A DNA stretch of 52,548 nucleotides from Actinocrinis puniceicyclus (GCF_018283645.1 NZ_JAGSXH010000035.1:1-52548); one strand, 5' to 3'; numbered from the stretch's first letter, positions 8,024 through 22,102 are shown. Notes: a model not told the origin generated them from the sequence alone. Numbers and translations: made by a program.

Positions 8024-8649
8024 TTGTCACCCTCCTCCTTCGTCTCAGCGACCGCTACACGTTTCAGATGCGCAAATTGCGTTTCGAGTTCTTCGCCGAT
8101 GGTCGGCGCGAGCACGCCGGCACGCGCCATTTCTTCCTGCACCTCTAGCGCAACTTGGATGGCGTGGAGCGCACCGGCGTACCTAGCGAACTGGTCGTCG
8201 GTCGGCATGCGCCGCACGTCGTCGATGCCTTTATAGAACTTCTGGTAGAGGCGGATGGCCTCGTGTGCCTTTGACCAGTTGTTCTTCGCCTCCGCAGTAG
8301 CGAACTCATCCCCCCGCGGATCGGCGATTTCCCCTAAGAACCACCGGTAGACGTCCCATGGTGTCGCCCGGACGTTCGGCGCCACTTGTTGCACGTCTTT
8401 GGTGCCGAGCGGTGTCACCAGGAGTATCGGCGGCACGTTCAGGACGAGGGCGAGAATCAGCAGTTCATCGAGCGTTACCGAGGTGCGCCGTCCGCTCTCG
8501 AGGTTCGCGACGACGTCGCGTTCCCACTTCAAGCCGGCCTCCTGGCACTTCTCCGCGAGAACGCGGGCGCTCCAGCCCCGATCGGTCCGGTACTGGCGCA
8601 CGCGCGCGGCGAAGGTCTGGGTCGGAGTCTCGTTGGCGGGTTGCGTCAC
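8020..8649 (-). CDS. XRE-family repressor-like regulator of the integrated element
   Basis: The 209-residue product has an N-terminal helix-turn-helix at about residues 12-75 (VRQYRTDRGWSARVLAEKCQ and VVANLESGRRTSVTLDELL), the usual actinomycete XRE form. A longer C-terminal part rich in Trp and Tyr (YRWFLGEIADPRGDEF, LYQKFYKGIDDVRRM) resembles regulators of integrative elements. The start is taken as GTG 8649 because it directly follows the divergent operator region; a longer frame upstream would run through that region and into the opposite-strand gene. A possible promoter (TTGTCG near 8680-8685 and TATTGT at 8656-8661, reverse strand) would give a nearly leaderless transcript. The overlap with int suggests joint expression. 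Confidence 0.8.
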   Translation of the reverse strand: MTQPANETPTQTFAARVRQYRTDRGWSARVLAEKCQEAGLKWERDVVANLESGRRTSVTLDELLILALVLNVPPILLVTPLGTKDVQQVAPNVRATPWDVYRWFLGEIADPRGDEFATAEAKNNWSKAHEAIRLYQKFYKGIDDVRRMPTDDQFARYAGALHAIQVALEVQEEMARAGVLAPTIGEELETQFAHLKRVAVAETKEEGDK

Positions 8650-8744
8650 AGAGACACAATAGCTGCTCCCTTGACACAACGACAAGTGTTGCGCGACGCT
8701 TGGATTGTGTCTATGGATCACAGTTACGCGGGGGAGGCGCAATA
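8650..8744. promoter_or_regulatory. Divergent operator/promoter region between XRE and excisionase genes
   Basis: GACACAA occurs at 8653-8659 and 8673-8679, exactly 20 bases apart (two helical turns), and its inverted copy TTGTGTC lies at 8705-8711. A further partial copy, GACAAGTGTTG, starts at 8681. A reverse-strand promoter-like pair (TTGTCG and TATTGT) sits among them. The arrangement suits autoregulation by the XRE protein and a lysogeny-type switch between integration and excision genes. Confidence 0.55.
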
Positions 8745-8939
8745 GTGACTGAAGGGATGCAACTCCCGGAGCGGTCGCGGACGCACCTGGAGACCGCCGA
8801 GCTCCTGCGTAAGAAGACCGGGCCGAAGTCGTTCCGGGTCGGGCGTCACCGGCGCTACAACCGCTCCGACGTGCTCGAATGGCGAGAAAGCCCGGCTCCG
8901 ATTGCCAACGCGTGCCGCGCTGGGGGTGGGGCACCGTGA
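8745..8939 (+). CDS. Small helix-turn-helix protein, excisionase-like
   Basis: 64 residues starting at GTG 8745 with a strong GGGGGAGG ribosome site at 8731-8738. The core LETAELLRKKTGPKSFRVGRHRRYNRSDVLEW is the MerR/AlpA-like winged helix used by excisionases and by small regulators of actinomycete integrative elements. It is divergent from the XRE gene and overlaps the next gene as GTGA. By position it is the candidate Xis partner of the integrase or a regulator of transfer functions. The protein is slightly longer than the domain itself. Confidence 0.65.
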   Translation: MTEGMQLPERSRTHLETAELLRKKTGPKSFRVGRHRRYNRSDVLEWRESPAPIANACRAGGGAP

Positions 8940-9181
8940 TCAGCCGCACCGCACCGACGCGCGAGGAGATCATCGCCCGGGGCGTACGTATTGACGGGCT
9001 GACCGCGGTCCGGTGGATCTACGGCGTTGGTCGGACTAAGGGCTACGAGCTGCTGCGTTCCGGCTCGCTCGACTTCAAGGTGATCCGCGTGCCCGGGCGG
9101 AGGGAGAGCTACGTCGTGCCCACCTCCGAAGTGTTGCGGGTGCTCGGCCTCCAGGACGCGCCGGCCGAGACGGCGCGGTGA
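8936..9181 (+). CDS. Small helix-turn-helix DNA-binding protein
   Basis: 81 residues starting at GTG 8936, overlapping the previous stop (GTGA). The segment LTAVRWIYGVGRTKGYELLR and the closing VPTSEVLRVLGL look like an excisionase-type winged helix that binds DNA through the KGYELL helix. Together with the preceding gene it forms a pair of small HTH proteins, a common arrangement in integrated elements where one serves excision and the other replication control. Which does which cannot be read from sequence. Confidence 0.6.
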   Translation: MISRTAPTREEIIARGVRIDGLTAVRWIYGVGRTKGYELLRSGSLDFKVIRVPGRRESYVVPTSEVLRVLGLQDAPAETAR

Positions 9182-9184
9182 CAC

Positions 9185-10165
9185 GTGGCAATCTCGCTCG
9201 TCGTCGAAGTGCTCGACCATGCACCGCGAGAACTGACGCAGGCGGAACTGGTGGTGCTTGTCGTGCTCGCCGAGCAGGCACGCGAGGCCACCCGCGAGTG
9301 CTGGCCTGGCATGGAACTGATCTGCCACCGGAGCAGACTCCAGGAAGACAGCGTGCGCAAGGTCTTTCAGCGGCTCGCCGCGCGAGGGCTTGAGGTTCGT
9401 GTGCCAGTAGGCAAGAGCAGGAGCGGTCAGCCGATCTACGCGCACCACGGAGCGCGGACGCTCTACCGCATTCCCCGCTTTGCTCCGCCGACCCAGAACA
9501 CTCAGCCGGTGGGTGGCGTCGAAGCCGGGACGCCGGTCCCCCCTTCGACAGTCGAAGCCGGGATGGCCATCCCGCCTTTGCCGGTCGAAACGAACGACGA
9601 CGGTCCCGTGAAGGCGGGACGAGGATCCCGGAAGGGGGGAACATCATCCAGCGAAGGCAGGACGAGCGTCCCGCCCTTTCCTTCACTCCCTCAGATCCCC
9701 TCACCTACCTCCTCCCGGGTGTCCGGCTCTGCGGCTGCGGCCGCCCCGCATCCGAACAGCGAGGAAGACAGGCAGGAGGGCGCTCCGCAGGAGGACGAAC
9801 ATCAGACGGCCGCCGTCGTGCTGCTCGCCCATCTCGACCTCGGCCGGCCTCTGCGTTCTGACGAGGCGGGTCGACTGCTGGAGATGATCGTGCCGAGACT
9901 CCGGGCGGGCTGGCCCGTCGCGCAGTTGCGCGACACCGTGTCCGGCGACTGGGGCGGAGTGAACAACCGCGTCGCAGTGCTGCACGCGCGGCTTGAGAAG
10001 ATGTCGATGCAGCCGCCGACACGCACGCGGTCTGAACGCCCGGACCTTGACCACCTCATGCCGATCGGACATCTGCCAGACCACGTGCCGGCAACGACTG
10101 GTGTGGGCGCTCACGTAACTGGACCAGGGTCGGCTCACGTTATGGGGCCGGCCCTGGTCTGTTGA
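9185..10165 (+). pseudogene. Winged-helix replication-initiator-like protein, C-terminus displaced by IS21-type insertion
   Basis: The first 304 codons are native. An N-terminal winged helix (about residues 5-90, with LVVLVVLAEQAREATRECWP and SVRKVFQRLAARGLEVRV) is followed by a Pro/Gly-rich low-complexity linker (about 95-195) and a helical C-terminal part (LLEMIVPRLRAGWPVAQLRD, then WGGVNNRVAVLHARLEKM). This layout is common in proteins following excisionase genes in actinomycete integrative elements and is thought to serve replication. At codon ACT 10097 the gene meets the target duplication of the IS21-type element. The last 21 codons plus stop shown here belong to the element. The original 3' end lies at 21998-22102 and rejoins in frame. 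Confidence 0.7.
10097..10101. repeat. Left target-site duplication ACTGG of the IS21-type element
   Basis: ACTGG immediately before the left terminus; the identical pentamer follows the right terminus at 21995-21999. Five bases is within the normal IS21 range. Confidence 0.85.
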
Positions 10166-10171
10166 TCGGGT

Positions 10172-10432
10172 CTACTTCGTGGCGCTGGTCGCCGCCTTCG
10201 GCCGTTTGTTGGGTCTGTAGGAGGGGCCGTTCATGAAGACTTGGTGGCTCGTGTTGATCAGCCGGTCTAGAAGGGACTCTGCGACGACCGGGTTCGGGAA
10301 GAGCGGATACCAGTCCTGGGGTGCGCGGTTGGCGGTGATCACGACCGAGCGAGCCTCGGCGACCCGCTGAGAGATCAGCTCGTAGAGGTCGTCGGCCTGG
10401 GTGGGGGTGAACTCCCGCATCGCGAAGTCGTC
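10172..10432 (-). pseudogene. istB: IstB C-terminal part, separated by the RIT-type insertion
   Basis: The frame beginning next to the insertion reads DDFAMREFTPTQADDLYEL, then VVITANRAPQDWYPLFPNPV and a basic end NKRPKAATSATK. This is the sensor-1/arginine-finger half of an IstB AAA+ helper ATPase. It joins directly to the N-terminal part at 19409-19912, whose last residues are VDLLILD. Together they rebuild a normal IstB (about 250 residues). Walker B is split exactly at ILD/DF, so neither half can work. Confidence 0.85.
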
Positions 10433-10435
10433 CAG

Positions 10436-10455
10436 TTACTCCGATGTCGGAGTAA
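10436..10455. repeat. 20-bp palindrome just outside the left RIT inverted repeat
   Basis: TTACTCCGA and TCGGAGTAA flank a 2-base centre. It lies between the istB sequence and the left 34-bp repeat and has no counterpart at the right end, so the two element ends are asymmetric. It could be a recombinase core site or a remnant of excision. Confidence 0.6.
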
Positions 10456-10489
10456 CTCGACTTATACCGAAGCCGTGATTATGCCGATT
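10456..10489. repeat. Left 34-bp inverted repeat of the RIT-type element
   Basis: Begins CTCGACTTATACCGAAGC and ends GCCGATT; the exact reverse complement occupies 19378-19411. Confidence 0.85.
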
Positions 10490-10553
10490 GGTGCGCGAGC
10501 GATGGGCGTGACCTGCTCGATGTCGGCTGGTTGGGTGCTGGAGGTCGGGATAA

Positions 10554-10768
10554 TCACAGGCCTTCGAGGAACGCGAGGAGCTCGTCGTTCGGGCGGTAGC
10601 GGCCGGGCTTGACGTGGGGTGGTGTTGTCCGGGCGAGTGCGCGTTCTTTGATCGTCATGTCGGCGTGGAGGTAGGGCTGAGTCGAGCGGGTGTCGGCGTG
10701 CCCGAGCCACAGGGCGATCACGGTGGTGTCGACGCCGGCGCGCAGCAGGCTCATGGCGTTGGTGTGCC
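10554..10768 (-). pseudogene. RIT recombinase C-terminal fragment (third-recombinase type)
   Basis: Downstream of the TGTGCC junction the frame reads HTNAMSLLRAGVDTTVIALW, LGHADTRSTQPYLHADM, then GRYRPNDELLAFLEGL and stop. It contains the HxLGH box and the catalytic tyrosine region (QPYLHA) of the third recombinase of RIT elements (pattern VIALWLGH..TTxxYLHAD). The part encoding residues before the LRH motif is absent here. Through the inserted Tn554-like element it would fuse in frame to a second-recombinase N-terminus at 17343-18084. Confidence 0.8.
10763..10768. repeat. Left TGTGCC core of the Tn554-like element
   Basis: The hexamer TGTGCC at 10763-10768 recurs at 17343-17348. Host codons on the reverse strand read LRH up to the right copy and HTNA from the left copy, so the hexamer is the shared crossover core, comparable to the 6-bp cores known for Tn554. 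Confidence 0.75.
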
Positions 10769-10948
10769 TTCTCTCCGCAGTGCTCGTGTGCGACGGGCCT
10801 CGTGTGGCGATTCGCGTGGTGGTTCGGTGAACGACTTCTCTGCGAGTGAGATGCTGCGGCGTGATGCGATTCCCGGTTTTGGGTGTGACGCACGTCATGT
10901 CGTTCGAGTACTGATGAGGTCGTTTGTGGGCATCGGCGTGCGGGGGGT

Positions 10949-11365
10949 TTGTCGGTGGCCGCTGCCATCATCTCGGTCGTGTCTGTGTTGAGCTTCGCTG
11001 ACGTTGAACGTGCTGTGCGTGCGAGTTGGAGTGTCGAGACCTGTGATCCGGCTGCTGTGGATGAGTGGCGTCCGGACAATCCCAGTCTGGGCCAGTGCGG
11101 TGTGACGGCGTTCGTCGTCCAGGATCTTTTCGGCGGCGACCTGGTGCTCGGCGAGGTCCATGTCGATGGTCGCAAGGTCGGAAACCACTATTGGAACCGG
11201 TTCGGCCGCGGCCTTGACGTGGACTTGACGCGTGAACAGTTCCGGCCGGGGCAACTCGTGGTCGGCGGAGCGGTGGTCGTGCGGCCCCCGGATGCACCCC
11301 GGCGTTGCCGTGAAGAATACGAACTCTTGCGGGATCGAGTGCTGGCGCGGCTTTCTTTGGAGTGA
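10949..11365 (+). CDS. YunG-family protein (cargo of the Tn554-like element)
   Basis: 138 residues with SWSVETCDPAAVDEW, NPSLGQCGVTAFVVQD, NHYWNRFGRGLDVDLT and REQFRPG, the conserved blocks of the YunG family. Members have a conserved Cys, His and Asp that suggest a papain-like or transglutaminase-like fold, but the function is unknown. The start is uncertain: TTG 10949 is the longest, and TTG 10988 (MSFADVERAVRASW) matches usual family starts better. It is the only plus-strand gene inside this element and points toward the 3' end of the recombinase operon. It is not part of the transposition machinery as far as known. Confidence 0.7.
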   Translation: MSVAAAIISVVSVLSFADVERAVRASWSVETCDPAAVDEWRPDNPSLGQCGVTAFVVQDLFGGDLVLGEVHVDGRKVGNHYWNRFGRGLDVDLTREQFRPGQLVVGGAVVVRPPDAPRRCREEYELLRDRVLARLSLE

Positions 11366-11397
11366 CCGCGGGCCTGGCGTTGTGTGCTCGGGGGCCG

Positions 11398-11850
11398 TCA
11401 ATGTGATGCCCCTGCGGGCCGGCTCCGCAGCGAGATGACGTTGTCGGGGCTGTTCAGTGCACTGCGGAGCCTGATGATCTCCTCGTGTTGGGCAGCCAGG
11501 CGGGAGAGTGCTTGGCCGCGGAGGTCAGTGAGTTCCTCGATCGTGCGGTCGGCGCGGGCCAGCCGCGCCTTGAGCTGTGCGACGTCGTTCTTCAGGCGGT
11601 GGATTTGGGCGGTGCGCGGGTCAGGGGTCTCGCCGGTCTGACGGAGGCGTTCGAGCCGCTGCTCGAATTCTTCGCGCAGGTGGGCGTAGGGGCGCCTACC
11701 GTAGAAGGCGGTGCGGTCGACTCCGGCTTCGCGGGCGAGGGTCTTGATGTCGCAGTTCCCGCCGGGCGGGATCTCGCCGCGCAGCAGTCGGTCCATGGCG
11801 GCGCGGATGCGGTTCTCGGTCTCGGTGCGCTGGGCTGCGGTGATCCTCAT
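11398..11850 (-). CDS. TnpC-like / DUF6262-family transposition accessory protein
   Basis: 150 residues: an N-terminal helix-turn-helix-like part (IRAAMDRLLRG, CDIKTLAREAGVDRTAFYGR) followed by a long coiled coil (residues about 75-135, with IHRLKNDVAQLKARLARADR). Small coiled-coil proteins of this kind follow the recombinase genes in Tn554-like elements, where TnpC affects the orientation and frequency of transposition. ATG at 11850 overlaps the preceding recombinase stop as ATGA, so it is the last gene of the coupled operon. Confidence 0.75.
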   Translation of the reverse strand: MRITAAQRTETENRIRAAMDRLLRGEIPPGGNCDIKTLAREAGVDRTAFYGRRPYAHLREEFEQRLERLRQTGETPDPRTAQIHRLKNDVAQLKARLARADRTIEELTDLRGQALSRLAAQHEEIIRLRSALNSPDNVISLRSRPAGASH

Positions 11851-14054
11851 GCGGTGTCCTGATCCGAAGCGGTGGTCGTGGCGGCGTCGATCTCTGCGAT
11901 CACGCGCAGGGCCCGCTCGCGGTCGGCCTTAAGGCGGGAGCGTTCGGTGGCGCGGGTTTTGCCGAGCGCTCCGAGGAACGTCTTGGTCTGCTCGGCGTGC
12001 TCGGCCCATACCGGCCGGTGGCAGGAGTGGTGGGTGGCCTGTGGGCAGCGGGCGGAGTCGCACATGCCGACCAGCGGGCGGTCTGCGGTCGGGGTGCCGG
12101 CGAGTTTGAGGCACAGGGCCCGGGAGGGGTCGGTGAACCAGCAGTAGTTCGCCGTCCCGAGGTGGAGGGTCTTGGCCCGCTTGGTCAGCAGGTTCAGGAT
12201 GTCGCGGTCGCTTCGCTGGGTTCTGGGCGCGGCGGCGTCCGGCGTGGCTGGGCCGGGGTCGATGCTGGCGAAGAACTCGGTCAGGCTGCGGGCTCCGGGG
12301 CCGGCGGGCAGGATACCCTCCTGGTAGTTGCGGAACTCGGCGAGCACGAGTTCGAGGTTGCGGTCCGCTTCGTGCTTGTTGACCTCGGCCAGCAGCTCGG
12401 CCTGGGCGCCGCCGGGGCGCGAGGCGTAGCCCTCTGTCGCCGCGACAGCGATATGTTTCAGATGGATCTTGGTGGCGAGCACCCCGCCGGGACGGTAGGC
12501 CATCTCCAGCGCGAGTGTCCTTCTCAGCGCCCTGAGCGTGATGCGTCCCTCGGGGATCGGGGCCAGGCCGAGGCGCGCTCCGGCCGGGGAGTTGACCCAG
12601 GCGCGCAGCCAGGTGTAGCGGGTGTAGAAGTCGAAGCGGCCGAACAGCGGGCCGCCTTCGTTCTGGGTGTCGTGGAGTTGTTCGGCCAGTTCGACGGCCC
12701 GGTAGGCCGGTTCGATGACCACCCATTCGTCGGCGGTGCCGCCCAGCGGCTGGCCTTTGATGACTTTGCTGGCGATTCGGTATCGGCGCAGGCCGGGGAC
12801 CGGCTCCTCGACCGGGCGACGGCAGCCGATGCGCAGTTCCATCAGTTCGCTGGCCCTCATCCCCGCAGCCGCCGCCAGCAGGAGGATCGCCGCTGTGCGT
12901 ACGATCCCGACCAGGGCGACGGCCTGGCTGCGGTGCAGCGGCAGGGTCCAGGGCAGCATCCCGCAGCCGTCGGCGGCAGGGGTCTCGGCGGCGTCGCGGC
13001 CGAACTGCTTCTGCACTCCCACCTGCGCCACCGCGTCGAGGAACGGGCCGCGCAGTAACGGCATCCACCTGGCCCACAGCTGGGTGTAGCCGGCCTGTCT
13101 GGCCGGGATGCCGGTGGCCACCATCAGCAGCGGGTCGTCGGGAGCCCAGTCGGCGGCCAGCCTCGGTTCCACGTCGTGCTCTTCGATCATCGGCAGGGCG
13201 ATGCCGGCGGCGACGTAGTGGTGCTCGAGTACGGCCTTGATATCCGCGATGGCGGTCGGTGAACCGTGGCGCAGGCCTGCGGCCTGGAGCGAGGAGATCT
13301 GTCGTGTTTCGCACACGTGCCGGTGGAGTGCGGCGGTGTGCGGCCCGAGCACCGTGACCAGGTGCAGCGCCGCGGCGAGCACGGGTTGCAGGAGCGTGTT
13401 GGGCACCGGCTCGGTGGTGTTGCCCTGGCGGCCCGAACGCATCTCGGCGATCGCGCTTGCCGAGGCCCCGCCCCAGGGCCGCAGCTCGGGCCGGACACGG
13501 TCGGCGGTGAACAGCTCCCGGTAGTCGATCAGGTCGATGATGGCCTGCGCGGCGGAGCGTCTGATTCCGGGGCTTTGCTCCCCGACGACGCAGCCGTGAT
13601 CGTCCAGGACGAAGCGCCGGTGCGCCAGGTAGGCCTCGCACTCTGCGGAGCCGAGCTGTGCCAGGCTGCTGATGCGCCGCTCGTGGAGCCAGGTGAAGAA
13701 CCGAACGAGCTCGTCGAGCCGCGCCGCGCAGCTGCGCAGGTGCAGGGGCGTGCGATAAGCCCGCGGGAGCAAGGCGACTGCCGGGTGGTGCGGGGCGAGC
13801 ATCGCGAGGATCAGCTCTTTCGCGACCAGGCGCCAGCCAGGATCGACGACCTGGGTGAACTCGAAGCGCCGTGCGCGCGGAGCCATCTGGACCGGCAGCC
13901 CGATCACACCGGTGAAGTCCCACAGGTCGTGGTCGAAGACCGGGCGGGCGGCGTCGCCGGGCAGCGAGAGCCCCGCCTGGTCGCAGAGATCGGCCCCGGC
14001 AAACGGTGAGGACGAGGCGTCGGCAGGCCGGTGGGCGGCGGTCAGTGCCCTCAT
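11847..14054 (-). CDS. Third tyrosine recombinase of the Tn554-like element (TnpB-like)
   Basis: 735 residues from ATG 14054, which overlaps the previous stop as ATGA; a longer in-frame stretch upstream overlaps that gene and is ignored. The catalytic part holds the first arginine in AAAAGMRASELMELR, a lysine strand, the second arginine in LRALRRTLALEM and the box LKHIAVAATEGYA with the likely tyrosine nucleophile. The histidine expected three residues before the second arginine is replaced by arginine. The C-terminus carries a Cys/His cluster (CDSARCPQATHHSCHRP, about residues 660-680) that may bind zinc. Large TnpB-like recombinases of this family assist the smaller TnpA-like enzyme. Confidence 0.8.
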   Translation of the reverse strand: MRALTAAHRPADASSSPFAGADLCDQAGLSLPGDAARPVFDHDLWDFTGVIGLPVQMAPRARRFEFTQVVDPGWRLVAKELILAMLAPHHPAVALLPRAYRTPLHLRSCAARLDELVRFFTWLHERRISSLAQLGSAECEAYLAHRRFVLDDHGCVVGEQSPGIRRSAAQAIIDLIDYRELFTADRVRPELRPWGGASASAIAEMRSGRQGNTTEPVPNTLLQPVLAAALHLVTVLGPHTAALHRHVCETRQISSLQAAGLRHGSPTAIADIKAVLEHHYVAAGIALPMIEEHDVEPRLAADWAPDDPLLMVATGIPARQAGYTQLWARWMPLLRGPFLDAVAQVGVQKQFGRDAAETPAADGCGMLPWTLPLHRSQAVALVGIVRTAAILLLAAAAGMRASELMELRIGCRRPVEEPVPGLRRYRIASKVIKGQPLGGTADEWVVIEPAYRAVELAEQLHDTQNEGGPLFGRFDFYTRYTWLRAWVNSPAGARLGLAPIPEGRITLRALRRTLALEMAYRPGGVLATKIHLKHIAVAATEGYASRPGGAQAELLAEVNKHEADRNLELVLAEFRNYQEGILPAGPGARSLTEFFASIDPGPATPDAAAPRTQRSDRDILNLLTKRAKTLHLGTANYCWFTDPSRALCLKLAGTPTADRPLVGMCDSARCPQATHHSCHRPVWAEHAEQTKTFLGALGKTRATERSRLKADRERALRVIAEIDAATTTASDQDTA

Positions 14055-15775
14055 GCCGTGTGCTCCTCGGGGCGCAGCGGGATCTGCTCGTCGGTGTGGG
14101 AGACCTCGGCCGCCGCCGCGGTCAGTCCGGCGGGGTCGAATCGTTCGAGTACCTGGTCGATCCGCGCGGCGTACGGGCCGAACACGGCCATGAAGTGGGC
14201 GGCGGGCATCTGCTGCCACTGCCGGGAGAAGAACGCCTTCAGGCGCAGCAGGTTCGCCGCGTGGCGTGGGGCGAACACCGCCAGCGGACACAGCAGGCAG
14301 ACCCAGGGCCGGGCCGGACACGGCTTTCCGGCCGGGCCGTGCAGCCCGGAGAGTTGGTCGCCGCAGGCAGCGGTGAACACGTCGCGCTCTCCGCCGACCA
14401 GCTCGGCGATCGCCGCGTCGTCCAGGCCAAGCCGGGCCACCAGCTGCGGATAGTCCTCGGCCAGCGCGGCCGCGTCCTCCTCGGTGATCACCGTGGGCGG
14501 GTGGGCGCGGCGCAGGATGTCGTGCTGGGCGTCCTCCATGATCGTCTCGACGGCGTGGCGTTGAGCCGGTGTCGTGGCGGTCAGGTAGTGGTCGCCCTCC
14601 ACGGCCGGGGTGTGGTTCGGGTCGATCGTGGCCCGGGCGCTGCCGCTCCAGCCGCTCCTCTCGCGCATGGCGTGGTGGGTGGTGCGGATCCGCGCCCGGT
14701 GGACCTTCATCGGCTGCCCGTCCTCACCCGCGACCCCGAAGCGGCGGACCCATCGTTGAACAGCGACACGATCGACCTCGCGCACCAGACGGGCGTTGCC
14801 GACCTGGCTCAGCCCCAGCCAGAGCTTGTCGCGCTCCGGCGCGGTAACCAGGCTGCGCAGCAGCGCCGAATGCGCGAGCCACCGCTCCAGCAGCCGCACC
14901 GCCGGGCGTGGCAGGTTCAGGCTCTCTGCTGCGGTTCGGCCTTTGACATAAGAGAGCAGGACCGTGCAGTCCCCGGCCCACTCGACGTCACCGACACCCA
15001 GGTCCGCGATGCCGTCCGGAACGATCCCGGAGTAGATCCCGAACAACAGCCGGTAGGCGATCAGCGTGTCCAGATGCGGGAACACCGACGTCATCGCCTG
15101 GTAGAGGCGCACGGCGCCGCCGCGATTGCGAAACACGGCGGCTGTCACACCGAGGGCGCGGGCGAAATCCGGTGTGCCGATCGGCCCGGTGCGGGCCAGC
15201 AGCCAACAGAAGTTCTCCACCGTCCATCCGCCCTCGGCCGGGTGCCGGGCACCCGCGACCGAGGTCAGCGTCTTGCGGTGGGCGGCGTAGGACTCCTCGA
15301 CCAGGGCGCGGCACACCGCGCCCAGACGCTCCCACTCAGCCTCCGGATACGGCGGCAACGGCTGCCGGTTGGGCTGGATGTTGAAGTGCCGGCCCGCGGC
15401 CAACTCCAGCACTCCCGTGCCCAGGACGCCTCCGGCACGCGCGAAGCCCTCCACCAGGCTGCGGGTCATCGCCTCCAGATGAGTAGGCCCGGCCATCCAG
15501 AACTGCGCCAACTGGCCCCGGCGCAGATCACCGGCGCCGCCGGAAAAGCCCTGCTGCGCCAGGACATGGACCATGCGGCTCAGGGAGCGGGCGTAGTGGC
15601 CGACCGAGCCCGCAGCATCCACCGAGCCGTGCGGATGGATCAGCTCCACCAGGCCGAGCGCCAGGTCACGAGCTAGGCGCGGGTTGGGCAGGGCGTCGAG
15701 CGCGAACTCGGCCCTGCTTCCGTCGCTGAACACGCACACCACGCCCAGCGGCTCCTCCACGACCATCGTGGGCAT
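14051..15775 (-). CDS. Second tyrosine recombinase of the Tn554-like element, catalytically degenerate
   Basis: 574 residues from ATG 15775 (the stop of the previous gene overlaps by one base, TGATG). The catalytic domain shows the H-xx-R pair in VHRARIRTTHHAM and a C-terminal H...Y stretch in NHTPAVEGDHYL. Where the first arginine should stand, the sequence is SGIVPDGIADL, lacking it. A cysteine cluster (CPARPWVCLLCPLAVF, about residues 500-515) follows and resembles the zinc-like tail of the next gene. The coupling of three such genes suggests a multi-subunit recombinase in which this member has a structural role. Confidence 0.75.
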   Translation of the reverse strand: MPTMVVEEPLGVVCVFSDGSRAEFALDALPNPRLARDLALGLVELIHPHGSVDAAGSVGHYARSLSRMVHVLAQQGFSGGAGDLRRGQLAQFWMAGPTHLEAMTRSLVEGFARAGGVLGTGVLELAAGRHFNIQPNRQPLPPYPEAEWERLGAVCRALVEESYAAHRKTLTSVAGARHPAEGGWTVENFCWLLARTGPIGTPDFARALGVTAAVFRNRGGAVRLYQAMTSVFPHLDTLIAYRLLFGIYSGIVPDGIADLGVGDVEWAGDCTVLLSYVKGRTAAESLNLPRPAVRLLERWLAHSALLRSLVTAPERDKLWLGLSQVGNARLVREVDRVAVQRWVRRFGVAGEDGQPMKVHRARIRTTHHAMRERSGWSGSARATIDPNHTPAVEGDHYLTATTPAQRHAVETIMEDAQHDILRRAHPPTVITEEDAAALAEDYPQLVARLGLDDAAIAELVGGERDVFTAACGDQLSGLHGPAGKPCPARPWVCLLCPLAVFAPRHAANLLRLKAFFSRQWQQMPAAHFMAVFGPYAARIDQVLERFDPAGLTAAAAEVSHTDEQIPLRPEEHTA

Positions 15776-17238
15776 CAGGCCTCGTTCTCCCCGTCGAACT
15801 CCGCATCGGCCTCGCGCTCGGCCGCGGCGGTATCGAGCAGCCCGGCCGTCGCCCCGGCGCCCTCGTACGCCTCCCGATAGATCCTGGTGGTATCAAGGCG
15901 TTTCAAGTACTTCTCAGTTGTCAGGACAGTCGAGTGACCCAAAAGGTCGCGCAGCACCAGCAGCGGGTCCGTCTTGGACAGATAGAAGGCGAGCGCGGCG
16001 TCGGCATCGGTGTCGCGCACCAGCCTCGCCGCCTGCCGGTAGTGCCCCGTGACCAGGTACTCCAAGGTTCGCATCGAGAAGGTGTGGCGGCATCGGTGGG
16101 GGTTCACGTGGGGGAACCGGGGCTCGAACCGGGCGCGGATGCGGTCCGAGGTGCGTTCGAACACGCTGGCCCACGCGGTGAACGGGCCGCCGCCGGCCTT
16201 GACCGCCAGCAGGCACGAGCCGCCCGAGGGCGCGACCAGGCGGCGCCGCTCACCCGGGGTCAGCGCTGCCCAGGGGCGCCGGATCCCGTTGATCAGCCCG
16301 CCGCGCTCGTCGGGCTCGGTGACCATCAGCGGATCACCCCACCGCCGGGGCGGGAGCCACGTCGTGCCGTCCGCCGTGGCCGCCCGCTCCAAGTGGATGT
16401 AGTCGCGCACCGCGGCCAAGGCCTCGAAGGAGATCCAGGTGGTGCGGTGCTTGCGGCCCTTGGTGATCCCGGCCGGCATCGGGAACGCGATCGGCACCGC
16501 GCTGCGCACCGGTGGCAGGGCGGGTATCTCCCAGGGCAGCAGATACGTGAACTCCGCGAGCCGCAGCCCGGTGGCCAGCGCGAGATCGCCGACCGCGCCG
16601 TTGCGGGCCAGTTCCCGGCCGTGGAAGCCAGTGTCCTGTGAGCCGTCCGGCGCCAGCCCGCGCAATCCCCGGCGCAGCAGCTCGGTGAAGTCAGGCTCCA
16701 GATACTTGATCGTCACGTGCGGCTTCGGGGTGCGGCGCACCGCCAGGTTCACCCGCACCTCCCGGCCCGTACCCGCGAACAGGGCCCGCGCCGCCCGATA
16801 GGTGAACGGCTCGGCCGCCGCATAGCCCTCGGCCATCGCCCACCGGTAGAACAGCGACAGGATGCTCATATGCTGGCCCCAGGTCGTCGCCGCGAACCTC
16901 GAGGCCAGTGGCCCGGCCGCCCGATGCTCGGCATACCGGCTCAACCCCGCCTTCAGCCGCTCCCGCGTATCGAACAACCCGACCCCGTGCACGGCCAGGA
17001 ACTCCGCCCAGCCCTTCACCGCCCGCGCGTAGCTCTCCCACGAACTCGGCGACGGCGCCCCGCTGGCCGGCAACTCCCGCAGCCACCGGTTGACCACCGC
17101 GGCCGGACGGGGCGCGGCCGGGCCGTCCTCGAAGCGAAGGTCCTCATCGACGAGCACAGGCATGCCCTCGGGGATCAACGGCCGGTACTCCAGGTCCCAC
17201 GAGCGCCAGCCGGTGGAGGAGAAGAAACTCAGGATCAT
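15775..17238 (-). CDS. First tyrosine recombinase of the Tn554-like element (TnpA-like)
   Basis: 487 residues if started at ATG 17238; an in-frame GTG-type extension to 17292 is possible. The SAM-like domain (about residues 50-170) includes WESYARAVKGWAEFLAVHGV. The catalytic residues are all present: ATGLRLAEFTYL, NPHRCRHTFSMRTL, and RDLLGHSTVLTTEKYLKRL with the tyrosine nucleophile. It is the only one of the three with a full RHRHY set, so it is the probable active strand-exchange enzyme. The gene lies right inside the right end of the element and starts the minus-strand operon. Confidence 0.85.
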   Translation of the reverse strand: MILSFFSSTGWRSWDLEYRPLIPEGMPVLVDEDLRFEDGPAAPRPAAVVNRWLRELPASGAPSPSSWESYARAVKGWAEFLAVHGVGLFDTRERLKAGLSRYAEHRAAGPLASRFAATTWGQHMSILSLFYRWAMAEGYAAAEPFTYRAARALFAGTGREVRVNLAVRRTPKPHVTIKYLEPDFTELLRRGLRGLAPDGSQDTGFHGRELARNGAVGDLALATGLRLAEFTYLLPWEIPALPPVRSAVPIAFPMPAGITKGRKHRTTWISFEALAAVRDYIHLERAATADGTTWLPPRRWGDPLMVTEPDERGGLINGIRRPWAALTPGERRRLVAPSGGSCLLAVKAGGGPFTAWASVFERTSDRIRARFEPRFPHVNPHRCRHTFSMRTLEYLVTGHYRQAARLVRDTDADAALAFYLSKTDPLLVLRDLLGHSTVLTTEKYLKRLDTTRIYREAYEGAGATAGLLDTAAAEREADAEFDGENEA

Positions 17239-17342
17239 GAGAGCCGACCATAGAAACACGACACGGGCCGGGGCAAGCCCCAAACCCGCCACCCACCTGC
17301 GCCCTACTCGGCTATCGCCACACGGGAACTAAGCAGAGACAA

Positions 17343-17348
17343 TGTGCC
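17343..17348. repeat. Right TGTGCC core of the Tn554-like element
   Basis: TGTGCC, identical to 10763-10768. On the reverse strand these bases encode the H of LRH and the first bases of the next codon of the interrupted recombinase. Confidence 0.75.
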
Positions 17349-18084
17349 GCAGATCGTGGGTGCGCGGTCGGGTGGAGGAGTCCCGCCCGACGCCGCTGTC
17401 GCGGACTAGGGTGCGGAACGTCGCTCCGAAGTCGGCGTAGATGACGGGTGTTCCGGTGGTGGACATGAAGAACGTGCGTGTTTGTACACGGGGCAGGAGT
17501 TGGTCGCGTTCCCCGGCGTAGGCGGCCAGGGCTTCTATTACCGAGCAGGAAACGGGCAGTTCGCGGGACTTGGCGAACTTCGACGCCCGGATGGTGATGA
17601 CGCGATCGTCCCAGTCGACGTCGGAGCGTTCCAGGCGGAGGGCTTCGCCGATTCTCATGCCGGTAGCCGCAAGCAGTCCGATCACGGTCCGGTAGGTGGC
17701 GGCCCGCGCCGCAGTGGGGATGGTCCGCGCTGTTTGCTGCATCAGAGCTTGAATATCTGAATCCGTGTATATGAACGGAGGGCGCCACCTCTGGCGGTAG
17801 GGGACCAGGCCCGTCGGCGGTATCTGAGTGTCCGGGTCGATGCCGGCCATGTGGCGGGCGAAGCCACGGACCACGGTCATCCGTCGCGCACGTACCTTGC
17901 TGTCCGCACCGACCTCGGGCTGCACCGCCCAGGCCAGCGCCGCCTCGATCGTGATGCTCGTGGCGCCGCAGGCGTCGAGGTAGGCGACGAATCGCGGCAG
18001 CAGCCGGTTCGCTTCGGCCAGTTCGTGCCCCAAAGCTCGGCGCAGCCACAGGTACTCCTCGGCACGATCGCCCCACGGGCTCAT
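17343..18084 (-). pseudogene. RIT second recombinase, N-terminal part cut at the LRH motif
   Basis: Starts ATG 18084 with an ATGA overlap of the first recombinase stop. It begins MSPWGDRAEEYLWLRRALGH, the usual start of RIT second recombinases, and contains LAATGMRIGEALRLERSDVD (first catalytic arginine) and ASKFAKSRELPV (lysine strand). The frame reaches PRTHDLRH and then runs out inside the inserted Tn554-like element. The catalytic GH and Tyr box of its own type (usually LPxLSTYLGH) is not found anywhere in the window; the sequence on the far side of the insertion is of third-recombinase type. Confidence 0.8.
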
Positions 18085-19277
18085 CGCTGCGCTCCAGGCC
18101 AGGGACGAGACACGGTCTGCAGCGCCGCCCGGTCCAGCTTGGCGTAGACCGAGGTGGTGGCCAAATCTCGGTGCCGCAGCACCTGGCCGATCTCGAGCAG
18201 GTCGCCGCCTTGGCGCAGCATCTCGGTAGCCAGCGCGTGGCGCAGCCGGTGGCCACCGACCGGAGCCAGCCCGACCCGCTCACAAGCGGCATAGACAACC
18301 CGGGTGATGGAGCTGGGGTGGATCGGTCGGAACGGCGCGTACTTGGTGAGGATGACACTCGTCGATGACGACGGCACCCGTCCGCCACGCAGGTAGCAGG
18401 CGATCGCCTCGCCGACCTCTGCGGTCAACGGGAGCCGGTCGTCGCGCCTGGCCTTGCCCCGCACCCGGATCTCTCCGGCCCGCCAGTCGATGTCGGCCAG
18501 TTGCAGCGCGGCGACCTCGCCAGAGCGCAACCCCAGACGGGCGAGCAGGCTCAGGATCGCGTGGTCGCGAAGCCCTCCCGGTCGAGACCGGTCGCAGCCC
18601 TCGAGTACAGCGGCGACCTGCGCGGCCGTCAACGTGGCAGGCAGTCGTGCATCGCGCCACCCGGCCACCGGCGGGATCGCGGCCGCCAGATCAGTGCTCG
18701 TCAGGCCCCGGATATAGATGAAGTGGAGCAGCGAGCGCAGATCGGCTGCTTCGCGCTTGGCCGACTCGACCACCAGCCGCGAACGGCACTCCAAGAGATA
18801 CCCGTGGACTTCGGCGGCGCCCAGGCCGTCGATCCCGGTCTCACCGCCGCCCGAAGACGCCCGATACGCCAGGAAACGCTTGGCCATCCGCCGATACCGA
18901 ACGACAGTCAAGACCGCCAGGCCTCGATCACGCTCCAGGTACCGGCCATAGCAGTCCAGCAGATCCTCCAGCCGCGACGGCTGCGCCCGCTCCAGCAACA
19001 GCACCCGTTCGCCGCGCAAGAACTCGAACAACTCGGCCAATGCCCGCAGGGTCGGCACCCTCTCGCGCACGGCGGTCCGGCGCGCGTCCAGGAACTGCTG
19101 CGCCCGCGCCGGTGTCGACTCCGTGACCGGAAACCTGTGCTCCTGCAACCACCCGCTGAATCCGCCGAGCAACTCCAAACGCTCCCCGATCGCCCTGGGC
19201 GAATAGCCACGCTGCTCCAAGCAGTGCCGATAGCCGTCCGTGTGCCGCGCCAGCGGACCTTCGACCGGTACATCCAT
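18081..19277 (-). CDS. RIT first tyrosine recombinase, intact
   Basis: 398 residues. A SAM-like domain spans about 105-190 and the catalytic domain 215-390, with LLARLGLRSGEVAALQL, VGGHRLRHALATEML and IGQVLRHRDLATTSVYAKLD, so all RHRHY residues are present. The gene is the first of a coupled series (its stop overlaps the next start by four bases), the normal order in recombinase-in-trio elements. It lies about 100 bases inside the right inverted repeat. Because its partners are disrupted the element is probably immobile unless supplied in trans. Confidence 0.88.
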   Translation of the reverse strand: MDVPVEGPLARHTDGYRHCLEQRGYSPRAIGERLELLGGFSGWLQEHRFPVTESTPARAQQFLDARRTAVRERVPTLRALAELFEFLRGERVLLLERAQPSRLEDLLDCYGRYLERDRGLAVLTVVRYRRMAKRFLAYRASSGGGETGIDGLGAAEVHGYLLECRSRLVVESAKREAADLRSLLHFIYIRGLTSTDLAAAIPPVAGWRDARLPATLTAAQVAAVLEGCDRSRPGGLRDHAILSLLARLGLRSGEVAALQLADIDWRAGEIRVRGKARRDDRLPLTAEVGEAIACYLRGGRVPSSSTSVILTKYAPFRPIHPSSITRVVYAACERVGLAPVGGHRLRHALATEMLRQGGDLLEIGQVLRHRDLATTSVYAKLDRAALQTVSRPWPGAQR

Positions 19278-19377
19278 AACGCCTCCCTCATCGGTGATCG
19301 ACCGGTAAGAGAAGCATCAGTGGATTATTCCGACTTGTCAGCGGACATCAGACGGACGACCTGCGGCCTTCCACCGG

Positions 19378-19411
19378 AATCGGCATAATCACGGCTTCGG
19401 TATAAGTCGAG
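19378..19411. repeat. Right 34-bp inverted repeat of the RIT-type element
   Basis: Exact reverse complement of 10456-10489. Its last three or more bases coincide with istB codons, so the precise end is ambiguous by a few bases. Confidence 0.85.
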
Positions 19412-19912
19412 GATGAGCAGGTCGACCTTGACGTGTCCGGCCAGCCGCTTGTCGAAGGTGCGGTCGGCATGTCCGCCGGCGAGGTCCGCCAGGATCCGGC
19501 TGGTCTTGTGGAAGCGGACCTCGGCTCCGGCCCGGATCGCCTGGTGGCCCATGGCCTGGGCGACGTGAGTCTTGCCCACTCCGACGGCCCCGTAGAGGAT
19601 GATCGACTCGCCCGCGTGTAGCCAGCGCAGCGCGGCCAGATCGCGGATCTGGGCGGCCGGGAGCTTGGGCGAGGCGGTGAAGTCGAAGCCTTCCAGGGTG
19701 GTCTCGAGATCGAAGCGGGCGCGGCGCAGGCGGCGGGCCATGCCCTGCTGTTCCCGCCGGGTGATCTCGTCGTCGCACAGGATCTGGAGGAACTCGAGGT
19801 AGCCCAGGTCGCCGCCTTGAGCCTGGTCAAGACGGGCGTCGAGGGTTTCGAGCATGCCGGAGAGTTTCAGGGCCCGCAGGCTGTCGGCCAGTGCGGGGCG
19901 CAGGATCGTCAT
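19409..19912 (-). pseudogene. istB: IstB N-terminal part (AAA+ transposition helper), interrupted
   Basis: Begins at ATG 19912 (ATGA overlap with the small preceding gene). It has the IstB N-terminal domain, the linker FDFTASPKLPAAQIRDLAAL, Walker A in LYGAVGVGKTHVAQAMGH and the start of Walker B in VDLLILD. After that codon the frame enters the RIT element and ends within it. IstB normally stimulates IstA and selects targets; the remainder of the gene is at 10172-10432. Confidence 0.88.
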
Positions 19913-20154
19913 CGTGTCGTCTCAGTCTTCTGGGAGAGTTCAGCGGGTGCGGTGAGCAGGGCTTGGAGGGCATCGGCATGCAGGCCGGCGGCGGTGAGCA
20001 GGATGTCGACGGCGCCGTCGAAGCCGAAGTGGTCGTCCAGGGCGTCGGCGGCGGAGGCGTCGTCCATGTCCAGGACCGTCTCGAGCGTGCGCAGCAGCTC
20101 GGCGAGGGCGAGCGCGTCGCTGCGGGCGAGGTGGATCGTGTCGGTGTGGTTCAC
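19909..20154 (-). CDS. Small protein coupled between istA and istB
   Basis: 81 residues starting at GTG 20154 overlapping the istA stop (GTGA) and ending in an ATGA overlap with istB. The sequence is acidic and helical (LARSDALALAELLRTLETVL, DMDDASAADALDDHFGFDGA, LLTAAGLHADALQALL). No known family is recognised. Overlap at both sides makes accidental occurrence unlikely. It may be an accessory factor that couples or balances IstA and IstB. Confidence 0.65.
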   Translation of the reverse strand: MNHTDTIHLARSDALALAELLRTLETVLDMDDASAADALDDHFGFDGAVDILLTAAGLHADALQALLTAPAELSQKTETTR

Positions 20155-21800
20155 GAGGCGGGCTCTTGCTGCTCGTGGTCGCCGGGTTCGCGACGCTGGT
20201 CGGCGTTCGCGGCGTGCGTCGTCTCGACGGTGGGGGCGGGGAACGCGATGACGTCGGCGAACAGCTGGGTGGGGCCGTGCAGGAACGCCGGGGCTCCGCC
20301 GTCGCCGGTCGGCCGTTCGGGCTCGATGTCCTCCAGGCCGTGGACCAGGATGTTGCGGATGGTGCGGTATGACGGGTCGCCGGCCGCCGCGGCCTTGCGG
20401 CAGGCCGCCTCCAGGCGGGCGTCGGTGTGTTTGCCGGCCAGCGCGAGGATCGCCTGAGCCGAGCGCAGCCGGTGTAGCGCTTCGCCCTCGAGCAGTTCGG
20501 CGATGATCGCGGCGGTGGCGGGTCCGGTCCGCTCGGCGCGTTCCCGGCACCAGGCCGGGGTGCGCATCGAGAACGCGATCTTCTCCGGCGGGTAGTCCGC
20601 GACGTCGGTCCGCCGTCCGCTCTCGGCGCGCACGTGCGTCTTGACCAGCTCGCCGTGGTGGAAGACCTGCACCATCGTCGCGGTGGCGCGGACATCGACG
20701 TGCTGCCCGACCAGCTTCCACGGAACGCTGTAGAGCACCTTCCCGCACTTCACGTGCACGTCAGGGCCGACCTTGGCCCGCGACCACTCCGCCAGCGTGA
20801 ACGCCCGGTCCGGCAACGGGATAAGCGTGCCGGCCTCGACCTCGTCGAACACCTTCGCGGGCATTCGGCCGTCCAACGAGCGGTGCCTGCGCACCCCGGC
20901 GACCTCGCGGCACCAGTGCAGCGCGGAGGCCTGCATCTCGGCGACACTGGCGAACTCCCTGCCCTTCCACCACGAGTCACGGATGTAAGGCATTTGTCTT
21001 TCGACTCTGGGCTTGTCCTTCGGCTTGCGTGCACGAGCGGGATCGACCAGGACGCCGTAGTGCACCGCCAGCTCGGCATACGCCCGGTTCAGCTTCGGGT
21101 CGTAGAGATCGGGCTTGTCCACCCCGGTCTTCAGGTTGTCCGGCACCAGCCGGGCCGGGGCCCCGCCGAAGAACGCGAACGCCTCCACGTGGCTGGCCGT
21201 CCAGGAAGCCTGGTCCATCGAGACCACCGGCCGGACGAACATGTGCCGGGAATGCGAGAGCACCATGACGAACGCCCACATCCGGTGCGAAGCCCCGGTG
21301 CGCGGATCGGTCCAGGAGCCCAGCATCCCGTAGTCGATCTGCGCCTCGAACCCCGGATCCGGGTCAGGGCGCAGCACCGTCACCTTCTCCCGCACCGCGT
21401 CCTCGGCCAGGTTCGCCGCGACATACCGCTTGAACGACGCCACCGACGCCGTCACCCCGCGCTCGTCACGCAGCCGCTGATGAATCGTCGCCTTGGACAC
21501 CCCGGCCCGCAGCATCTCGACGATGTACTCCCGGTGCTTGTCGAAGTCCGGCCAGGTCACCTGCCGCAACCGGGTGTCCGTCAGGTACGGGAACCAATCC
21601 TTGACCAGCGCCGCCCACTGCGCCTCGCTCACCGGCGGGCCACCGGGAACGAACCCCGCGGCGATCGCTGGCTCGACATAACGGCTGATCGTCTTGCGGT
21701 TCACCCCCAAAGAACCGGCGACATCGTGCTGAGACCGACCGGCATACCAGTGCACCAGGATCTCGGTTATATCGATCACGTAGAAAGTCCTCCTCGCCAT
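20151..21800 (-). CDS. istA: IstA, IS21-family DDE transposase
   Basis: 549 residues from ATG 21800, chosen because GGGGAG precedes it; an in-frame GTG at 21815 would add five residues. Order: helix-turn-helix (residues about 15-50, HDVAGSLGVNRKTISRY), DDE catalytic core with the aspartate in EAQIDYGMLG, the second in VPDNLKTGVDK, and the glutamate in PKDKPRVERQM, then a C-terminal domain (FHHGELVKTHVR, then YPPEKIAF). The C-terminus is Gln/Glu-rich. The gene seems intact, but its helper IstB is split, so the element probably cannot move by itself. Confidence 0.93.
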   Translation of the reverse strand: MARRTFYVIDITEILVHWYAGRSQHDVAGSLGVNRKTISRYVEPAIAAGFVPGGPPVSEAQWAALVKDWFPYLTDTRLRQVTWPDFDKHREYIVEMLRAGVSKATIHQRLRDERGVTASVASFKRYVAANLAEDAVREKVTVLRPDPDPGFEAQIDYGMLGSWTDPRTGASHRMWAFVMVLSHSRHMFVRPVVSMDQASWTASHVEAFAFFGGAPARLVPDNLKTGVDKPDLYDPKLNRAYAELAVHYGVLVDPARARKPKDKPRVERQMPYIRDSWWKGREFASVAEMQASALHWCREVAGVRRHRSLDGRMPAKVFDEVEAGTLIPLPDRAFTLAEWSRAKVGPDVHVKCGKVLYSVPWKLVGQHVDVRATATMVQVFHHGELVKTHVRAESGRRTDVADYPPEKIAFSMRTPAWCRERAERTGPATAAIIAELLEGEALHRLRSAQAILALAGKHTDARLEAACRKAAAAGDPSYRTIRNILVHGLEDIEPERPTGDGGAPAFLHGPTQLFADVIAFPAPTVETTHAANADQRREPGDHEQQEPAS

Positions 21801-21994
21801 CTGCTCCCCAGCCACCAGGGCCGACAGCAGGCGATCATGGACGAGAAGAGGACATGGTCTTGATAACTACGTCCGAACGTTCGTCGCCCCCACGACGAAC
21901 ATCACGAGCGACCACACGGTCCACGACGAGCGACCGCCGGTCCCATTACGTGAGCGATTTCGAGCTTCGCGGTCCAATTACGTGAGCGCTGACA

Positions 21995-21999
21995 ACTGG
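21995..21999. repeat. Right target-site duplication ACTGG of the IS21-type element
   Basis: Same pentamer as 10097-10101, immediately after the right terminus. Confidence 0.85.
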
Positions 22000-22102
22000 C
22001 CAGGTGGAGAGCCACGCGGCGAAGGCTCGCGCTGCTCTGCGTTCAAGCCGATCCGGTCCGCGGCCGATCGCCGAAGTCCTCGCCGAACAGGCTGCTTACT
22101 GA
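21998..22102 (+). pseudogene. Displaced 3' end of the replication-initiator-like gene
   Basis: If the IS21-type element and one ACTGG are removed, the codon GGT/GGC is restored and the frame of the gene at 9185 continues for about 34 codons as QVESHAAKARAALRSSRSG and EVLAEQAAY, ending at TGA 22100-22102. This yields a protein of about 338 residues. The uninterrupted frame and sensible helical content support the reconstruction. Confidence 0.75.

Follow-up and report, generated by a model that had tools for sequence, protein, structure and literature searches.

Results

Three mobile elements nested in a host gene

We analysed a stretch of 52,548 nucleotides from Actinocrinis puniceicyclus (GCF_018283645.1, NZ_JAGSXH010000035.1), called the window below; positions are counted from its first letter. 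Three mobile elements are nested in it. An IS21-family element carries a RIT element in its istB gene, and the RIT carries an inner tyrosine recombinase (YR) transposon. The outer layer consists of the following features.

9185–10101, plus strand: 5' part of the host gene, with an HTH_36 domain; it resumes at 22000–22102 once the IS21 element is removed
10097–10101: left copy of the ACTGG target duplication
10102–21994, minus strand: IS21-family element with everything nested inside it, recognised by terminal repeats and IstA (NF033546)
10102–10125 and 21971–21994: imperfect 24-bp terminal repeats of the IS21 element
20151–21815, minus strand: istA, intact, 554 aa
21995–21999: right copy of the ACTGG target duplication

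The IS21 ends (TGTGGGCGCTCACGTAACTGGACC and GGTCCAATTACGTGAGCGCTGACA) are 88% complementary, and IstA matches the IS21-type transposase model NF033546 at 221 bits (cutoff 160). IstA, the IstB helper ATPase, terminal repeats and a 5-bp duplication, within the 4–8 bp of the IS21 family, are common to the element and the family, but the istB of the window copy is interrupted. The preliminary description of this DNA had proposed an IS21 insertion with an ACTGG duplication, and these 5 bp are indeed present on both sides of 10102–21994. With the element removed, the host ORF runs to 339 aa, of which the insertion alters only the last 30 or so residues. A homologue of the host gene, which would serve to check the joined end and the empty site, was not found in 246 genomes or in plasmids.

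A small ORF (LVNHTDTIHLARSDALALAELLRTLE..., 19909–20154, minus strand) lies between istA and istB, in the accessory-gene position of IS21. The region 6485–9181, which adjoins the interrupted host gene, contains an integrase of 512 aa and small DNA-binding ORFs and resembles the core of an integrative plasmid or ICE. This integrase keeps an intact HDLRHGH box.

The RIT element occupies the Walker B codons of istB

The second layer comprises the two parts of istB and the RIT between them.

10172–10435, minus strand: istB 3' part, beginning LDDFAMREF
10430–10435: right RIT core CTGGAC, the first 6 bp of the istB 3' part
10436–10455: 20-bp palindrome TTACTCCGATGTCGGAGTAA, outside the ritC-side repeat, in the same position in other RITs
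10456–19411, minus strand (10436–19411 including the 20-bp palindrome): RIT element, with terminal inverted repeats
10456–10489 and 19378–19411: perfect 34-bp terminal inverted repeats of the RIT
10554–10768, minus strand: C-terminal part of ritC, from TNAMSLLRAGVDTTVIALWLGH
17343–18084, minus strand: N-terminal 247 codons of ritB, cut at box II (..RPRTHDLRH)
18081–19277, minus strand: ritA, intact, 398 aa
19406–19411: left RIT core CTCGAC, the last 6 bp of the istB 5' part
19406–19912, minus strand: istB 5' part, as far as the Walker B sequence LLILD (PF01695)

Comparison with other RITs gave the order of the parts: a 6-bp core, inverted repeat, genes, inverted repeat, the reverse complement of the core, the 20-bp palindrome and again the core. 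In the window, both cores encode the Leu-Asp of LLILDD, the Walker B motif of IstB. Removal of the RIT in silico yields a full IstB with LLILDDF, and 13 further genomes from this order encode uninterrupted IstB proteins that are 72–76% identical over nearly the full length. Ten of these native genes were read as DNA: most use CTCGAC at these codons, and one uses CTGGAC. The RIT insertion at ILD/DF had been described before and is borne out. This layer is confirmed as clean; its 6-bp core and 20-bp palindrome had been overlooked.

The window RIT shares with described RIT elements (PMC3414803, PMC2864759) ritA, ritB- and ritC-type sequences, the 34-bp repeats and the palindrome at one end; the repeats lie within the 28–34 bp of RIT terminal inverted repeats and have the overlapping palindrome. 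It differs in that ritA alone is whole. Instead of a ritABC trio, the N-terminal part of ritB and the C-terminal part of ritC are left. The window RIT is a damaged RIT.

Most surveyed RIT elements interrupt transposition-type genes at conserved motifs

We surveyed 19 RITs with recognisable ends. Transposition-type genes are interrupted at conserved motifs in 16 cases, and the other three are L131, which lies in a GDPD gene, L142 and L143. Among the 16 targets are the IstB Walker B motif (three), IstA (two), box II of RitB or RitC (three) and box II of other YRs (two). IS66, Mutator, DDE_Tnp_1, Resolvase, AAA ATPase and group II intron reverse transcriptase (RT) genes account for one each; here "transposon-type" for the ATPase of L148 is our reading of an AAA match, and the calls for L100 (RT) and L101 (YR) are based on short motif stretches at contig ends. 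The RITs of the window, L130 and L042 occupy identical istB Walker B codons, and RIT removal from such istB sites restores IstB (PF01695, E 9e-63 and 4e-56). Elsewhere, removal restores IS66, Mutator, DDE_Tnp_1, IstA and Resolvase genes.

Of the two RITs in istA (L144 and L146), one lies directly before the catalytic Asp motif (PPGD^EAQVDYG) and the other in the N-terminal HTH (DRK^TVRRY). L162 and L163 are possible istB truncations. L131 was considered as an IstB target and rejected, the interrupted gene being the GDPD gene.

Single RITs have been reported in IS66 tnpA, in an ICE radC and in a transposase gene (PMC2864759, PMC3414803). The literature consulted does not describe the 6-bp core or Walker B and catalytic-motif targeting as a RIT rule; it may have been noticed before.

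The inner transposon has four core genes

The innermost layer contains the following features.

10763–10768: TGTGCC core at attR, on the ritC side
10769–17342, minus strand: inner four-gene YR transposon (SE-like or Tn554-like), 6574 bp, ends kept in relatives
10949–11365, plus strand: YunG-family cargo gene (PF24585, 140 bits)
11398–11850, minus strand: 150-aa DUF6262-like protein in the position of SE Srap and Tn554 TnpC (PF19776, E 5e-4, under the cutoff)
11847–14054, minus strand: IntB, large tyrosine recombinase, 735 aa
14051–15775, minus strand: second core gene, 574 aa, in the position of SE Tfp
15775–17292, minus strand: IntA, 505 aa
17343–17348: TGTGCC core at attL, on the ritB side, in the box II codons R-H

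The end repeats (TTGTCTCTGC.. and TTCTCTCCGC..) are imperfect. Across 18 aligned members, R244, H399, R402, H403, H453 and Y462 of IntA are invariant, and the protein has the SE-type RHRY. In IntB, R400, R511, H534 and Y543 are invariant, with an Arg in place of the box II His. The 574-aa protein, in which the box I Arg is absent, matches neither a Pfam nor an NCBIfam family; its predicted structure, of low confidence (mean pLDDT 63), gave only weak XerA matches. Structure comparison of IntB ranked Cre first, not significantly, and a search of solved structures by sequence found no clear relative.

SEs, the strand-biased circularizing integrative elements, have been reported solely in Gammaproteobacteria, and a study of them did not find homologues of their Tfp and Srap elsewhere (PMC10214605). 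The order IntA, Tfp-like, large IntB and small Srap-like protein is matched by position and size only; imperfect end repeats are also common to both, and the inner element would follow the 6-bp fingerprint rule of SEs (PMC10214605). Against SE-6283 of pSEA1, IntB gave E 1.6e-5 in a 320-kb record (hhalign E 1e-4) and IntA gave E 6e-4, and the profiles of both proteins align weakly with SE-6283 across the catalytic parts. The 574-aa protein has no detectable similarity to SE Tfp. The inner element differs from SEs in its actinobacterial host and its YR box II target, and it is SE-like, not an SE.

GInt islands (ginABCD; PMC5385486) are alike in having three recombinase-type genes and a small fourth protein, site specificity and a 6-nt staggered exchange. 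However, it is their third protein that lacks the first catalytic Arg, whereas in the inner element the second lacks it and the third keeps it. GInt islands target ssb, ABC-transporter and other host genes, and their cargo is usually larger (PMC5385486). Assignment to GInt was rejected, as the gene order differs.

Tn554 (TnpA, TnpB, TnpC) resembles the inner element in an ordinary and a large YR, a small protein, a 6-bp footprint and site specificity, but lacks an equivalent of the 574-aa gene. Its target is att554 in radC. With four core genes, not three, and a YR box II target, the inner element is not a plain Tn554, and the former label "Tn554-like" is approximate: four core genes are found in SE and GInt.

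The inner flanks belong to two different genes

The recombinase rejoined without the inner element is 316 aa long, with an open frame and all YR boxes. It turned out that it is RitB up to HDLRH (residues 1–247) and RitC from TNAMSLL on. Residues 1–247 are about 37–59% identical to RitB of intact trios, and the last 69–79 residues are 54–76% identical to RitC of intact trios and only 32–47% to RitB. Where the RIT trio is whole, the rejoined query splits across two neighbouring genes (396 genomes of the phylum), and comparing it directly with plasmid and genomic trios shows the switch of partner at the boundary. The assignment to RitC agrees with a C-terminal helix described as particular to RitC (PMC8138268).

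In intact trios the box II motifs of ritB and ritC are 962–1007 bp apart; therefore, about 1 kb, the 3' end of ritB and the 5' end of ritC, is missing in the window, and the empty site of the inner element reconstructed in silico is not ancestral. The rejoined frame is open because ritB and ritC have identical conserved codons at the junction. The missing piece was not found elsewhere in the assembly, a draft of 430 contigs from which very short ones were possibly dropped. None of the trios examined had a ritB::ritC fusion, and a precursor with two copies of the inner element in one RIT was not found.

A third RIT recombinase hidden in the window or genome was also considered, and none was found. 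The 57% match at 10557–10880 consists of the C-terminal part of ritC and an unsupported extension, and tblastn gave nothing past the boundary.

It had been proposed that each removal restores an uninterrupted frame. This is true of istB, and the host ORF does lengthen, to an end for which no homologue was found; it fails for the innermost layer, where the flanks are two genes and not one. Of the empty sites expected in other genomes, that of the RIT was found, and the search for the host gene in 246 genomes and in plasmids gave no homologue. For dating by synonymous divergence, no relative of the composite was close enough.

Most relatives of the inner transposon lie at YR box II codons

We collected 46 loci of relatives by a genome-wide search and three from plasmids; their ends are well conserved. 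Among 34 distinct attL sites, the window included, 27 end exactly, in frame, at YR box II codons. Box II was scored as [HRYP]x[LFMYWQH]R[HRK], in short form HxxR[H/R/K]. This pattern occurs at 0.26% of random positions, which gives a binomial tail of 5e-64. The left flanks end in, for example, HDLRH, HQLRH, HMLRH, HDFRR, HGLRH or YAYRH, and the right flanks carry on with the box III region (T-x-A-x-x-L...LGH). The target genes span RIT recombinases, phage-type integrases and large recombinases. Of the left flanks, 15 of 32 match PF00589, as do 10 of 20 on the right; some YR-box targets have diverged too far to be detected by Pfam, and these were called by motif and context alone.

Seven sites lie off box II (L047, L048, L072, L079, L083, L093 and the rearranged L049). 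In the IntA tree the box II users form one supported clade with a single exception inside it, L072, and the remaining non-users are the distant relatives. The targets of L079, L072, L047, L048 and L083 include an integrase-core (rve) gene, a nucleoside hydrolase, a gene that we read as PAPS-reductase-like, and others; L072 is the closer relative among these five, and three of the five loci have identical 6-mers on both sides.

TGTGCC had been taken for a target duplication. The two 6-mers of relatives usually differ (16 of the 22 loci with both ends), so TGTGCC is no target duplication and is presumably a 6-bp crossover core.

Several loci are rearranged or repeated. In Streptomyces sp. CBMA156 (L060:9944–20116), two family elements lie in one stretch, with one attL in a YR gene. 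The inner attR is followed by the C-terminal part of a same-family IntA, the IntB of the first copy being lost, and the outer attR by an IntB-type YR. Here one element interrupts an IntA of its family; family elements insert into their own kind. L049 (Streptomyces pseudovenezuelae) has two left ends and one right end, at 6813, 9941 and 16632; its outer left flank is HRLRH and its right flank a YR C-terminus, and the first copy probably encloses a second one or a remnant. Six Mycobacterium loci (L062, L063, L064, L066, L067, L068) have the same YR gene, site, element and 6-mers in several species, which suggests that the element is a passenger of a shared mobile element.

Discussion

Probable layered homing and a proposed deletion

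The nest is best explained by layered site-specific homing into catalytic motifs together with a deletion, or an assembly collapse, between two box II sites, and we consider this explanation highly probable. First, IS21 entered the host gene with the 5-bp duplication observed there. The RIT, whose site at the istB Walker B codons (LLI-LD-D) is seen directly, would then have inserted by a 6-bp-core reaction. The four-gene YR transposon, from a lineage whose specificity for box II HxxR-H emerges from comparison of its relatives, would have entered the RIT recombinase genes last. Presumably IntA and IntB carry out its integration through an overlap of 6 bp. SE and Tn554 take the 6 bp beside the IntA end from the target and the 6 bp of the far end from the previous location (PMC10214605), and the inner element would do the same. 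Since the target is present in both ritB and ritC, about 1 kb apart, double insertion or recombination would leave the structure seen. Most likely, either copies inserted at both sites and recombined, or the attR of one copy recombined with the second site. By either route the intervening 1 kb would be deleted. The mismatched flanks of L060, with one element in an IntA of its family, support such rearrangements.

Assembly collapse is the main technical alternative to the deletion. In that case, two identical inner copies, in ritB and ritC, and the spacer of about 1 kb between them were merged by short-read assembly. The draft state of the genome (430 contigs), the near-identical 6.6-kb repeats that two copies would form and the validity of both sites as targets all speak for it. 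However, no contig carrying the 5' part of ritC turned up in the genome, though very short contigs were perhaps dropped, and we regard collapse as unlikely.

It is also conceivable, with a rather small probability, that the composite moved as a unit, IS21 having carried the RIT, with or without the inner element, into the host gene, so that the nesting order is not the order of arrival. IstA is intact, other copies of IS21 could stand in for the broken istB, and the genome has an IS21 relative of 73% identity; but a second copy of the composite did not turn up there, and the order within the composite would be unaffected. Of the three-step order proposed earlier, the topological sequence IS21, RIT, inner element stands; the nesting does not show that IS21 was empty when it entered the host gene.

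We find it improbable that ritB and ritC had already fused, by homologous recombination at the common box II codons, before one clean insertion. The open rejoined frame with all YR boxes would fit, but ritB and ritC are identical over only a short stretch at the junction, none of the trios examined was a fused RIT, and the mismatched flanks of L060 are tied to the element itself. Three clean reversible insertions with target duplications, as in the preliminary description, are hardly tenable: the frames are open after all three removals and the ACTGG and istB layers are clean, but the innermost flanks are two genes with about 1 kb missing and the 6-mers differ in most relatives.

Catalytic codons as attachment sites

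Both inner elements lie in active-site codons of the element that they invaded, and this is habitual in the relatives compared here. We think it likely that, for an actinobacterial clade of four-gene YR transposons, the att site is the catalytic HxxR box of YR genes, in RITs as well as in the clade's own kind, and that RITs home to the catalytic codons of other transposition genes. The result would be a hierarchy of hyperparasites that disarm mobile elements, in which tandem sites give rise to deletions and to chimeras that mimic clean insertions. Literature searches turned up no transposon described as targeting YR genes.

The active-site codons of transposition enzymes are a conserved, widespread and often mobile target. 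Insertion there is probably harmless to the cell and breaks a competitor. Under such targeting, elements nest in a predictable way and not by accident. Inteins and homing introns occupy the most conserved active-site codons of host genes, and the transposons described here make the same choice; YR-box and Walker B targeting is the transposon counterpart of the intein habit. Inteins and homing introns, however, remove themselves from the protein or RNA, whereas these transposons destroy the gene. When neighbouring paralogues have the same motif, an open frame after removal is no proof of a clean insertion.

Rhodococcus koreensis has five near-identical copies of the inner-element family in one genome (L055, L056, L057, L058 and L080); a repeated YR holds four of them at one PHQLRH site, and a different YR holds the fifth. 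At L055, L056, L080 and L058 the 6-mers GGCATA and GGCACA are swapped between attL and attR, as would be expected if attR inherits the left flank of the donor. This makes R. koreensis a good strain for testing the movement of the family.
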